Shown here piece by piece: positions 9,573-33,673 of a DNA stretch of 33,673 bases. The notes below the pieces were generated by a model, which worked only from the letters and a program-made list of their open reading frames with translations, was not told where the DNA came from and ran no database searches. The stretch comes from Pseudanabaena sp. M53BS1SP1A06MG (GTDB taxonomy: Bacteria > Cyanobacteriota > Cyanobacteriia > Pseudanabaenales > Pseudanabaenaceae). The translations under genes and the position numbers were made by a program. Position 1 is the first letter of the stretch. The number at the start of each line of letters is the position of its first letter. The stretch covers positions 1 through 33,673 of the forward strand of contig JADBWH010000034.1 in the NCBI GenBank assembly GCA_020404105.1, written 5' to 3'.

Positions 9573-9661
9573 TAAGTAGCTCAACACCAGAGTTTTATTC
9601 CGCCCACTACGCGGGCGGAATAAAACTCTGTTTTTTTAGTTTACTTATGTCTAGCTACTTA
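9573..9661. repeat. Family B palindromic repeat
   Basis: Left end taagtagctcaac and right end tgtctagctactta. The core is the strong palindrome agttttattccgcc...ggcggaataaaact. A longer copy with the same core design is at 33130-33233. Confidence 0.8.
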
Positions 9662-27701: not shown

Positions 27702-28006
27702 TTGAATGGTCAACTTGCCTTTTTTTTGATACTAACTTCTAAATTTCGTGAAGTAGCACGAGATTTACCATTTACATAGCTTTGTAACCATTGTAGTGAA
27801 ACACCAGTAATCCTTACTATTGCTCTTAGTGATACTCGTTCTAGCATTAGCTTTTCAATCAATGCTTTTGTTTCATCTGAGATTGGCTTATTCTTTGGTT
27901 CTAAGCTAAATTGACGATCACAATCACGACATTTATGATTTTGCTTACCATGACGTGTTAAGCCATTAAGCACAATATTCTCGCTCTCACATCTAGAGCA
28001 TCTCAT
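27702..28006 (-). mobile_element. IS1-family insertion sequence remnant (insA plus first codons of insB)
   Basis: A 98-codon ORF (27710-28006) encodes an InsA-like protein: zinc finger with CSRC and CRDC (Cys pairs near residues 3-6 and 27-30), HGKQNHKCRDCDRQF, and a helix-turn-helix (LERVSLRAIVRITGVSLQWL). It ends in an A8 run. In the -1 frame the A8 is followed by GKLTIQ, the residues that begin the InsB part in cyanobacterial IS1 relatives, then similarity stops at about 27702. The DDE catalytic domain is therefore missing and the element is dead. No terminal inverted repeats or target-site duplication were found. The A8 run would be the original programmed -1 frameshift site. Confidence 0.75.
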
Positions 28007-29867: not shown

Positions 29868-32800
29868 ATGACTGGATTTGTTGGATTACACATTCATACT
29901 GAGTACAGCTTGCTTGATGGAGCAAGCCAAATTCCTGATTTAGTTAGTCGTGCTGCGGAATTGGGTATGCCTGCGATCGCTTTGACCGACCATGGGGTGA
30001 TGTATGGAGCGATCGAATTGATCAAAACCTGCAAATCAAAGGGAATTAAGCCAATCATTGGTAATGAAATGTATGTGCTGAACGGAGATATTACTAAGCA
30101 AGAGAAAAAGAAGAAATTTCACCAATGTGTTCTTGCCAAAGATACACAGGGTTATCGTAACCTTGTTAAATTAACTACTATTTCTCATTTACAGGGTTAT
30201 CAAGGTAAAGGCATTTTTGCCCGTCCTTGTATCAATAAAGATTATCTGCTGCAATATAAAGAAGGCTTGATAGTGACATCAGGATGTCTAGCGGGAGAAG
30301 TGCCACAGGCAATCATGAAAGGTGATCCTGAAGAAGCGCGACGGGTAGCAGCTTGGTATAAAGAATATTTTGGCGATGATTATTATTTAGAAATTCAAGA
30401 TCATGGCTATCCTGAAGATCGGATTGTGAATGTTGAGATTTTCAAGATTGCGAGGGAATTGGGTATTCGCGTAATTGCCACCAATGACTCTCACTTCACC
30501 TCCTGTTCCGATGTGGAAGCTCATGATGCGTTGCTCTGTATTCAAACAGGCAAGTTGATTTCAGATGAGAAGCGGCTCCGTTATAGCGGTATGGAATATC
30601 TCAAATCTTATGATGAGATGAAGCAGCTCTTTCGCGATCATTTGGAAGATGAGTTAATTGAGGAGGCTTTGGCGAATACCCTCCATGCCGCTAATAAGGT
30701 TAAGCCCTACGACCTGATGCGCGATCCCCGTGCTGCGGAATACCCAATTCCCGAAGGACATACTCCTGATACCTATTTTGAAGAAGTGACATGGCAAGGT
30801 TTATTGCAAAGATTTAATGTAAAAACCCATGCTGAGATTCCCCAAAACTATCAAGAACGTCTGCGTTTTGAATTGGGAATTATTATGCAAATGGGATTTG
30901 CGACTTACTTTCTTGTGGTGTGGGACTATATCAAATATGCCAGAGATAAAAAGATTCCTGTTGGTCCTGGGCGGGGCAGTGCAGCAGGTTCCCTTGTTGC
31001 CTACTCACTCGGAATTACGAATATTGACCCGATCCATCATGGACTTCTATTTGAGAGATTTCTCAATCCTGAACGGAAGTCAATGCCAGATATTGATACG
31101 GACTTCTGTATTGATCACCGTGGTGAATTGATTGAATATGTGACTCAACGCTATGGGCAGGAAAGGGTCGCACAGATTGTTACATTTAATCGCTTGACCT
31201 CGAAAGCTGTTCTCAAGGATGTAGGGCGGGTGCTAGATGTTTCCTATAGCGAAGCCGACAAGATGGCGAAAATGATTCCTGTGTCTCGAGGCAAGCCTGC
31301 CAAATTAAAGGTAATGATTTCCGAGGACTCGCCAGCACCTGAATTTCGCGATCGCTATAAGCAAGAACCAAAAGTTTACGAGTGGCTAGATATGGCGATG
31401 CGAATCGAAGGTGTGAACAAGAGTTCGGGGGTTCATGCTGCGGGGGTGGTGATTGCGCCTTTCCGATTGGATGAGGTTGTGCCATTACAACGCAGTAATG
31501 AAGGTCAAGTCGTTACCCAATACACCATGGAAGATTTGGAATCCCTCGGTCTATTAAAAATGGACTTCTTGGGATTACGGAACTTAACCACGATTGAGCA
31601 TACAAGTCAGTTAATCCGTAATAGTCAAGATCCAAATTTCCATATCGATGCGATCGCCCCCGATATGTCCACAGAGGCAAATCAAAAAACCTATAAGCTC
31701 CTTGAAAAAGGCGACCTCGAAGGTGTCTTCCAATTAGAATCGTCAGGCATGAAGCAGATCGTAAAAGATCTCAAGCCTTCCAATATTGAAGATATTTCTT
31801 CGATTCTGGCGCTTTATCGACCTGGTCCTTTAGATGCAGGACTAATTCCTAAGTTCATTAATCGTAAGCATGGACGAGAAGCGATTGAATATCAGCATCA
31901 TACTTTAGAACCAATTTTAAATAACACCTACGGTGTTTTATGTCTGGCTAAAGGGACTTTAATTGCTAGACCAGATGGCAAAAGTACAGCAATTGAGAAG
32001 ATTTGCAAAGGGGATCTAGTTCTCTCGTCTGATGGTAAGCGCGTATGGTCAGCAAAAGTTGCAAAACAATGGCAAAGTGGCATTAAATCGATTGTTAAAA
32101 TCACGCTTTCAACAGGTACAGAAATTTTTTGCACTCCAGAGCATCGTTTTCTAACACCACAGGGCGATCAGTTTGCCTATGCATTAAAGTCTTTAACTGA
32201 GACAGAAGATACTATTACCTATGGATCAATACTTTTCCAGTTAGATACTAATTCTTTAAATGAAGTAATTCCAGTATTTGTGGTATCTGTTGAAGATTGC
32301 GGGGAATCTGAATGCTTTGATATTGAAATGGCAGATCAAAGTTCTCCCTATTTTCTTGCCAATGGAGTCGTTACTCATAACTGTTATCAAGAACAGATCA
32401 TGAAAATGGCTCAGGAATTAGCGGGCTATTCCCTCGGTGCTGCGGACTTGTTGCGTCGAGCGATGGGTAAAAAGAAACCTGAAGAAATGGAAAAACAGCG
32501 TTCTATTTTCCTTGATGGTTGCGCGAAGAATGGAATTAGGAAAGAAATTTCTAACGATCTCTTCGATCAGATGGTTCTCTTTGCGGAGTATTGCCTCAGT
32601 TACGACACCTTAGTGCGAACTGTGGAATATGGCATAATGCCGATCGGTAAGATCGTGGAGCATCAAATTGAATGTCAGATTTACAGTGTTGATGAGAATG
32701 GATTTGTTTATACACAACCCATTGCCCAATGGCATGATCGCGGCAATCAAGAAGTCTTTGAATATGTGTTAGAAAATGGCGATCGCATTAAAGCTACCAA

Positions 32801-32894
32801 AGATCATAAGTTCATGACTACTGATGGCGAGATGCTGGCGATTGATGAGATTTTTGAACGTGGGTTAGATTTGGCTGTAGCAAAACAAACTTGA
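29868..32894 (+). CDS. dnaE: DNA polymerase III alpha subunit, N-terminal half, with a cis mini-intein and the N-half of the split DnaE intein
   Basis: The 1008-codon ORF begins with a PHP domain ([20 protein letters not shown], residues about 8-27). The polymerase palm has PDIDTDF, where Asp408 and Asp410 align with the first two catalytic aspartates of E. coli DnaE, and MDFLGLRNL with Asp566 as the third. At residue 692 the host sequence NTYGVL is interrupted by a 147-residue intein (692-838); the host resumes with [11 protein letters not shown]. At residue 909, after the conserved FAEY, the canonical CLSYDT starts a 100-residue IntN that ends the ORF. The N-extein is thus 761 residues after removal of the mini-intein. 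The C-half gene (IntC plus the rest of alpha) is not in this window. Replication needs both splicing events. Confidence 0.95.
31941..32381 (+). other. Cis-splicing mini-intein inside DnaE-N (147 residues)
   Basis: Block [21 protein letters not shown] with nucleophile Cys1. Block [16 protein letters not shown] with the T-x-x-H motif (TPEH). Block [19 protein letters not shown]. Block G: VVTHN followed by Cys as the +1 residue. The roughly 50 residues between blocks B and F hold no LAGLIDADG or HNH endonuclease, so it is a mini-intein that cannot home by itself. It lies between NTYGVL and CYQEQ in the conserved palm, a site where removal restores the uninterrupted DnaE sequence. All residues known to be needed for splicing are present. 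Confidence 0.92.
32592..32894 (+). other. Split DnaE intein, N-terminal half (IntN)
   Basis: Cys1 in CLSYDT follows the extein residues FAEY, the classical cyanobacterial junction. The block A/B features include [39 protein letters not shown] and [14 protein letters not shown], with T-x-x-H in TKDH. It ends LDLAVAKQT and a TGA stop. At 100 residues it matches the Npu/Ssp-type IntN in length. It associates with IntC of dnaE-C and trans-splices the two halves. Confidence 0.95.
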
Positions 32895-33129
32895 ATGGCG
32901 ATCACCTTTTCTCCAAAAGTCAAAATTCATTAGCTGCTAACCGCTGACAAGGAGATAAATAATATCCAAGAAAAACAAGAAACTGGGAAGTGGTAATTAC
33001 AGAAGAGTGATCAACCTAATCTTGCAATTGTTAGGGAATTATTTTTTGATTTATCGATTACGCCTTAGTACTGGAGTCTCTAAAATATCTTTTACCCACC
33101 ACCCTGAATTATATATCTACTAAAAAGAG

Positions 33130-33233
33130 TAAGTAGCTCAACTTAATTAAAACCTAAAACCAGAGTTTGTTCCGCCCGCTACGCGGGCGGAACAAACTTC
33201 TCGGTTTTTATTTTACTTATGTCTAGCTACTTA
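33130..33233. repeat. Family B palindromic repeat, best-preserved copy
   Basis: taagtagctcaacttaatta at the left and acttatgtctagctactta at the right. The core palindrome is agtttgttccgcccgc / gcgggcggaacaaact around tac. At 104 bp it separates the dnaE stop from the IntN relic and may mark the rearrangement that created it. Confidence 0.85.
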
Positions 33234-33454
33234 GTTTGTTTTATACCCGTTATTTTTGACCATTTTTTTAAGCTCAAAGTATTACCATTGTGGGTTAAAA
33301 GTATCTCTCCTTCTCCCCCTTTGTTTTATTGTTCATGTCGTCAACAACCCCTAGATAAACAGAGTCGGCTTAAGTAATTCCCTCCAATATCTCCTTAAGT
33401 GTTCCCATAAATATCTATATTCTTGTTTAAAAATTAAAATTTTCTAAATTTTAT

Positions 33455-33620
33455 ATTTCTATAATCGCAGTAGTCAAGAAATCTTTGAGTATGAGTTAGA
33501 AAAGAGCGATCGCCTTAAAGCCACTAAGAATCATAAATTTTATGACCACTGACGGTGAGATGTTGGCGATCAGTGAGATTTTTGAAAAAGGGCTAGAGTT
33601 GCTCTGTAGCTAAATCGATC
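33455..33620 (+). pseudogene. Degenerate duplicate of the C-terminal part of the split-intein IntN
   Basis: Codons from 33463 read NRSSQEIFEYELEK, then SDRLKATKNHKF, aligned with [14 protein letters not shown] and [12 protein letters not shown] of the intact IntN. An extra T then shifts the frame and [20 protein letters not shown] follows; a second one-base shift near 33604 restores VAK. By hand, 112 of 141 aligned bases agree with 32733-32875 (about 79%). Many differences are synonymous, and most amino-acid changes are conservative. No start, no block A and no Cys1 are present, so it cannot splice. Confidence 0.85.
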
Positions 33621-33673
33621 AAAATTAAATATTGCAGTCCTAAATCATTTGTAGATTTTTGGGTTTGTGGAAG

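Follow-up and report, generated by a model that had tools for sequence, protein, structure and literature searches.

The window, by which we mean the whole 33,673-nucleotide stretch of a Pseudanabaena contig analysed here, encodes on its forward strand the N-terminal half of the DNA polymerase III alpha subunit (dnaE-N; 29868 to 32894, +) as an open reading frame of 1,008 amino acids (TIGR00594, PF07733) that contains two inteins. The first N-extein (29868 to 31940, +) covers the PHP and palm regions together with the larger share of the finger region and ends in NNTYGVL. It is followed by a cis mini-intein of 147 amino acids (31941 to 32381, +; residues 692 to 838), which interrupts the finger region of the polymerase and runs from Cys1 through TPEH to THN, with Cys as the next residue. 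An extein of 70 residues (CYQEQ...FAEY; 32382 to 32591, +) separates the mini-intein from the 100-amino-acid IntN of the split DnaE intein (32592 to 32891, +), whose partner IntC belongs to dnaE-C, on another contig. The boundaries of the mini-intein, Cys692 and Asn838, were read directly from the open reading frame. The splicing residues of class 1 inteins are grouped in named blocks, among them B and F, and the mini-intein has C1, T65-H68, N147, and C+1 along with the Asp of block F and a His-Asn end; a homing endonuclease domain is absent from its 147 residues. The whole dnaE-N protein matches Intein_splicing (PF14890) with 58.3 bits and the mini-intein matches it with 37.6 (cut-off, 35.8), and a genome search with TIGR01445 recovered the cis and split N parts separately (41.6 and 55.3 bits; cut-off, 24.5). 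The C-terminal intein model TIGR01443 scored 15.2 against a cut-off of 15.6, that is, 0.4 bit under it. A profile of the mini-intein matches solved inteins, DnaE inteins included; an AlphaFold model with an input of 11 inteins reached a mean pLDDT of 33, and the assignment of an intein fold to the mini-intein rests on sequence. A preliminary description of this DNA had proposed a cis mini-intein and a split IntN in one dnaE half-gene, 70 residues apart, and the junctions and intein profiles agree with it: the double intein in dnaE-N is real, and it is very probably functional.

The partner gene, dnaE-C, lies on contig C122 of the same assembly, where IntC (MKIVGRKSLGEKAVFDIGLERDHNFLLDKGYVASN) stands directly before CFNK. 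This IntC begins with MKIVGRKSLG, ends with VASN, and has Ser instead of His at its penultimate position; IntN thus ends dnaE-N and IntC starts a separate dnaE-C, as the preliminary description had expected of the same genome. That description would have given way to an intein-free, intact dnaE, and searches with PF07733 and TIGR00594 found no further polymerase alpha gene in the draft assembly (4.63 Mb in 163 contigs; completeness, 99.97), the sole other match being weak (42 positions; E, 0.36). Likewise, dnaE-C is the single match per genome in the 16 Pseudanabaena genomes searched. Removal of the mini-intein in cis would join NTYGVL to CYQEQ; IntN would then pair with IntC of the dnaE-C product, and FAEY and CFN would be joined in trans by the established DnaE mechanism. 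Because no other dnaE was found, both splicing reactions must work for replication.

We compared the cis site among relatives. The gene dnaE-N was recovered from 25 of the 26 listed Pseudanabaena genomes, the exception (G006) being 82% complete; 22 loci form the first set, and G414, G415, and G416 were added later. The cis site is empty in 8 of the 25 genes, holds a 147-amino-acid mini-intein in 8, and holds a 399-amino-acid form in 9. In the empty alleles the insert is missing at exactly the insertion point seen in the window, and two of the eight mini-intein carriers, the window genome (G000) and G416, represent one species. The preliminary description had picked out the compact pairing of cis and split inteins as deserving study; the pairing is not peculiar to the window gene, as it occurs in 17 of the 25 Pseudanabaena genes and in at least four genomes of other genera. 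In an alignment of five full forms, two LAGLIDADG-like motifs were recognised by eye, and the 399-amino-acid form therewith apparently carries a homing endonuclease. Where the full form has this LAGLIDADG-like domain, six aligned mini forms have a linker that is one homologous stretch, and because they have it in common the deletion behind the mini form was probably a single event. These features suggest that the mini form derives from a homing intein by loss of the endonuclease.

The three allelic states do not follow the extein tree (22 genes), since they need 10 changes on it and shuffled labels need 10.7 on average; the starred branches force at least 5 changes for each. Such scatter is consistent with a mobile intein that goes through homing cycles and is exchanged between strains. 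Inner branches of the intein tree are mostly weak, and the starred ones force just 2 changes between mini and full, so it is the common linker that supports one origin for the mini form. In the 15 double-intein genes checked, the splice residues are retained with one exception, a Ser in place of the Thr of TxxH in a single gene. The mini-intein is under purifying selection: the ratio of mean dN to mean dS is 0.12 (6 genes), about six times higher than the ratio of 0.02 for 300 flanking extein codons, and the endonuclease region of the full form has a ratio of 0.08 (9 genes).

These data bear on two other accounts of the locus. One is that the mini-intein is dead and is retained in the alpha subunit; the TIGR01443 score slightly below cut-off would fit this, but Cys1, His-Asn, and Cys+1 are kept in 15 of 15 double-intein genes checked, selection on the mini-intein is purifying, a retained insert would split the finger domain, and a second dnaE was not found in the genome, all of which make a dead element very improbable. 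The other account is that the two inteins interact, with the halves of the mini-intein or IntN pairing with the wrong partner and splicing being regulated or giving dead-end products; a narrower form of it, mis-pairing of the mini-intein halves with IntC, had been raised in the preliminary description. Both inteins do sit in one chain, 70 residues apart, and the available text of one study (PMC3443213) describes cross-reaction in an atypical split intein that had been engineered and whose very short N fragments are 40 to 50% identical. Against this, the cis and split inteins are identical at just 22 of 96 aligned residues in their N parts and 10 of 35 in their C parts, and their charge polarity is opposite in the 15 (of 17) double-intein genes compared: net charge is +2 to +6 for the cis N part, −5 to −7 for the cis C part, and −9 to −13 for IntN. 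For IntC (16 genes) the charge is +2 to +4 over the first 14 residues and −2 to +2 overall, and because the whole IntC is near zero the charge argument rests on those first residues. Given the opposite patterns, wrong pairs would join acidic with acidic parts, or basic with neutral or basic ones. Mis-pairing of the mini-intein halves with IntC is accordingly disfavoured on both identity and charge and appears unlikely, the cis and split inteins are probably orthogonal, and double-intein alleles persist in 17 of 25 genes; we regard an interaction of any of these kinds as improbable, if somewhat less so than a dead element. We put at roughly 0.9 the probability of the explanation as a whole, in which the dnaE-N product would be a precursor with two independent protein-splicing elements, the mini-intein a former homing intein, and the pair orthogonal. 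As part of an essential replicase, the gene offers a natural, compact system for testing in what order cis and trans splicing proceed and whether they are orthogonal, and a single genus supplies empty, mini, and full alleles as controls.

Further interrupted genes were seen elsewhere in the window genome, all named by reading. A dnaB-like gene (L022, contig C35) contains a pair of inteins, of which one has an apparent endonuclease domain; a dnaX-like gene (L023, contig C77) contains a mini-intein. Protein splicing seems to be required for several of the replication proteins encoded in this genome. A class II ribonucleotide reductase-like gene (nrdJ-like; L024, contig C90) has two apparent inteins and is interrupted by an open reading frame of 369 amino acids that may be an intron endonuclease; no Rfam family reached its gathering score in this nrdJ-like region. 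In the window itself, a small open reading frame on the reverse strand (27710 to 28006, −) resembles by eye the InsA part of an IS1-type element.

Downstream of dnaE-N, at a distance of 0.57 kb, the window holds a decayed, frameshifted copy of the 3' part of IntN (33461 to 33632, +; about 81% DNA identity), a feature absent from the preliminary description. What is copied is the terminal stretch of dnaE-N, at most about 170 nt long, which corresponds to the 3' part of IntN. Copies occur on the same contig downstream of dnaE-N at 12 of the 22 first-set loci, in one to five pieces each; G001, G005, and G022 have IntN copies on other contigs or 30 to 34 kb away, and among the later-added genomes G416 has two and G414 and G415 have none. 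When dnaE-N was tiled in five genomes (150-nt tiles, 75-nt steps), secondary copies were found for the last two tiles only (the last 225 nt), apart from a weak secondary copy of the third tile in one of the five. No copied pieces of dnaE-C were found in the 16 Pseudanabaena genomes searched. Among nine loci of other genera, seven are without a downstream copy in 1.4 to 3.6 kb, one (L051) shows no IntN by pattern, and one (L095, in G388) has two. The two copies at this last locus comprise about the last 92 nt of IntN and lie beside tandem RTX-like repeat genes.

Two further observations concern the DNA around the decayed copy. We considered the copy as a relic of an unsplit intein, IntN followed by IntC, which alignment did not support: the stretch after the decayed copy scored 27 against IntC of dnaE-C, a value reached by 3.4% of 500 shuffles, and a longer piece of neighbouring DNA scored 28 against the same stretch. 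Separately, a repeated element with a G+C-rich perfect palindrome lies between dnaE-N and the decayed copy (33122 to 33241) and again at 213 to 317 and 9594 to 9661.

In related genomes, small units alternate with the IntN copies downstream of dnaE-N. Pfam assignments identify them as MazE/MazF-type pairs, a ParE toxin whose partner falls short of the Phd cut-off, Phd/YoeB-type pairs, a PIN toxin and its small partner, for which Pfam has no name, DUF2442/DUF4160 pairs, a "Cytotoxic" (colicin-type) domain with an unnamed partner, and Mrr-type and Uma2-type nucleases; some arrays also hold other genes, with no recognised toxin role. A unit begins no more than 100 nt from the dnaE-N stop at 15 of the 22 first-set loci and in none of the three later-added genomes. 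These adjacent units are Uma2 (six loci), Mrr (three), Phd/ParE (two), DUF2442/DUF4160 (two), MazEF (one), and a PIN partner (one, truncated by the contig end). Some units, MazEF, Phd/ParE, and DUF2442/DUF4160 among them, come after the live gene in certain genomes but after a dead copy elsewhere.

The C-terminal tail of the live dnaE-N mostly goes with the adjacent cassette. All six dnaE-N genes before Uma2 have LLCYN-type tails, and all three before Mrr have a KIL or KII tail. There are departures: G414 and G415 have LLCY tails without Uma2, in G017 a KIL tail goes with what by eye is no more than a remnant of the Mrr end, G000, G001, and G416 have an AVAKQT tail as G003 does but are without the cassette of G003, and the tails of G002 and G003, both before Phd/ParE, differ. 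The point at which IntN homology starts lies at about nt 168 after PIN (two genomes), 143 to 146 after MazF and Mrr, 186 to 188 after Uma2, and 135 beside a nuclease/immunity pair at three loci (124 at a fourth), and it varies within a type (130, 137, and 214 after ParE; 197 and 239 after YoeB). Mean identity of the IntN 3' part is 0.915 for same-cassette pairs (23 pairs) versus 0.898 (97 pairs); label shuffles gave values as high in 4 of 2,000 cases for the 3' part, 616 of 2,000 for the 5' part, and 112 of 2,000 for the difference, a test that is weak by itself. A close MazF is present in 19 of 26 genomes, once in each, and three of these lie beside dnaE-N or within its array; the one in G001 lies beside an IntN copy away from dnaE-N. 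At the ten other MazF places examined, no long copy of a neighbouring gene end was found, just repeats of 40 to 80 nt; the MazF place of G017 has a 1,150-bp repeat between two neighbouring genes.

One genome gives a close view of a single event. G416 is a single-contig genome of the same species as the window genome; its dnaE-N product is identical to that of the window at 1,006 of 1,008 residues, and the 779 nt after dnaE-N, decayed copy included, are 99.7% identical. In G416 a PIN toxin-antitoxin pair follows the decayed IntN copy, about 0.6 to 2.6 kb after dnaE-N (L135), and is flanked by a 601-bp direct repeat (99.5% identity) that starts inside the IntN copy. The pair is apparently absent from the window genome, because the PIN relatives there are only 39 to 47% identical. 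The window contig ends inside the 601-bp repeat, so the empty site cannot be read there.

To explain these arrays we tentatively favour, at a little under even odds, a reading in which the 3' end of dnaE-N is the recombination anchor for a recombinase-free traffic of toxin-antitoxin and nuclease cassettes in Pseudanabaena. Each cassette would bring along a copy of the end of the split-intein gene and would enter or leave by homologous recombination within it; entry at the 3' end would spare the essential gene, and old ends would accumulate downstream. The cis-intein endonuclease, with its site about half a kilobase upstream, may drag the adjacent cassette along during homing. The same picture, with the tail going with the cassette and old ends lying downstream, would come from integrative elements that use a site-specific recombinase and the dnaE-N 3' end as attachment site and that restore this end on integration. 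We consider such elements unlikely: neither Phage_integrase (PF00589) nor Resolvase (PF00239) has a match in the arrays of 13 genomes, a set outside which G001, G005, and G416 fall, and although a recombinase could act from elsewhere, the homology starts vary both between and within unit types, some of them perhaps shifted by decay. A site-specific integrative element would be marked by a recombinase gene of its own and by a single shared core, and neither showed in these arrays. Less probable again is a simple tandem duplication that took in the dnaE-N end and its neighbour and then decayed, with no transfer of cassettes. It would suit L095, in another genus, where each tandem RTX-like gene copy comes with the last 92 nt of IntN, but in Pseudanabaena the units between copies are of different gene families and in differing orders, and a given unit may follow either the live gene or a dead copy, depending on the genome.

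The arrays, which in the favoured reading are anchored on an essential replicase gene, are a more unusual observation than the double intein, and in the titles and abstract openings of the open-licence literature we found no report of the phenomenon. If the reading of dnaE-N as a recombination anchor is true, the arrays show a way for toxin-antitoxin genes to spread in which an essential gene's end, carried along, takes the place of a recombinase. The available text of PMC3967940 describes orphan rhs-CT/rhsI modules as displaced 3' ends of the main gene, usually without initiation signals, and proposes homologous recombination. The arrays are similar in that displaced 3'-end fragments of a main gene each lie within a toxin/immunity module; they differ in that the displaced end of an rhs orphan itself encodes the toxin, a displaced 3' end encoding the toxin tip being the mark of Rhs/CDI orphan arrays, whereas what is displaced beside dnaE-N codes for IntN, part of an intein in a replicase, and the toxins have open reading frames of their own.

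The cis insertion site is also occupied in other genera. Among 386 genomes sampled over the phylum, the mini-intein had a match in seven, four of them outside Pseudanabaena, at E values up to 1e-12, a limit that weaker same-site relatives would escape. In these four genomes, the intein lies between a YGVL or YGIL and a YQEQ or FQES motif and IntN lies further downstream; the order of elements was partly reconstructed in G349, where the gene is on two contigs, and in G388, where it contains a run of N. The preliminary description had suggested comparing the insertion site with known DnaE intein sites, and the same site is indeed used in all four, G349 included. At three loci with same-site inteins (L092, L093, and L095), GKNH or SKNH replaces the TPEH of Pseudanabaena, which means that conservation of the Thr in block B does not extend beyond the genus. 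G349 and G388 have an additional cis intein between the first intein and IntN, with junctions in G349 of LLRR before C...HN and CMGKKK after it, and the first intein of G349 is long, with tandem repeats inside. We take G349 to be Trichodesmium, and its repeat-bearing first intein and extra cis intein to be the Trichodesmium layout. Liu and Yang reportedly described, in 2003, a split dnaE of Trichodesmium erythraeum with multiple inteins, and this gene is the precedent to which the preliminary description had pointed. Like that gene, the dnaE-N described here has a cis intein upstream of the split IntN, and its first cis intein has an insertion site identical to that of G349; unlike G349, which has a long first intein and a further cis intein, it has a lone mini-intein. 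A two-intein dnaE half-gene is a rare layout that was already known, and the insertion site is not new.

The split half of the arrangement agrees with the split DnaE inteins of cyanobacteria, which are said to have been described by Wu et al. in 1998 and Caspi et al. in 2003: IntN follows FAEY, IntC precedes CFN, and Ser stands for the penultimate His, and the difference is the second, cis intein upstream. Replacement of the penultimate His of IntC by Ser or Ala is noted in the available text of PMC5874633. The available text of PMC5029880 reports an intein in DnaE1 of the Pseudanabaena clade at a position common to other cyanobacteria, which, the site not being given in that text, we take to be the split intein. 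A Desulfonema DnaE intein has been described as related to cyanobacterial ones, in a source whose available part names Pseudanabaena in a gene count only, and the titles and abstract openings of the literature yielded no description of the Pseudanabaena cis intein. For the alleles, a close counterpart is in the MCM-a and MCM-d inteins of haloarchaea: according to the available text of PMC10643990, these lie next to each other in a replication gene and occur in empty, mini, and full states, as in dnaE-N; both of those are cis inteins, whereas one of the two in dnaE-N is naturally split and is without an endonuclease.
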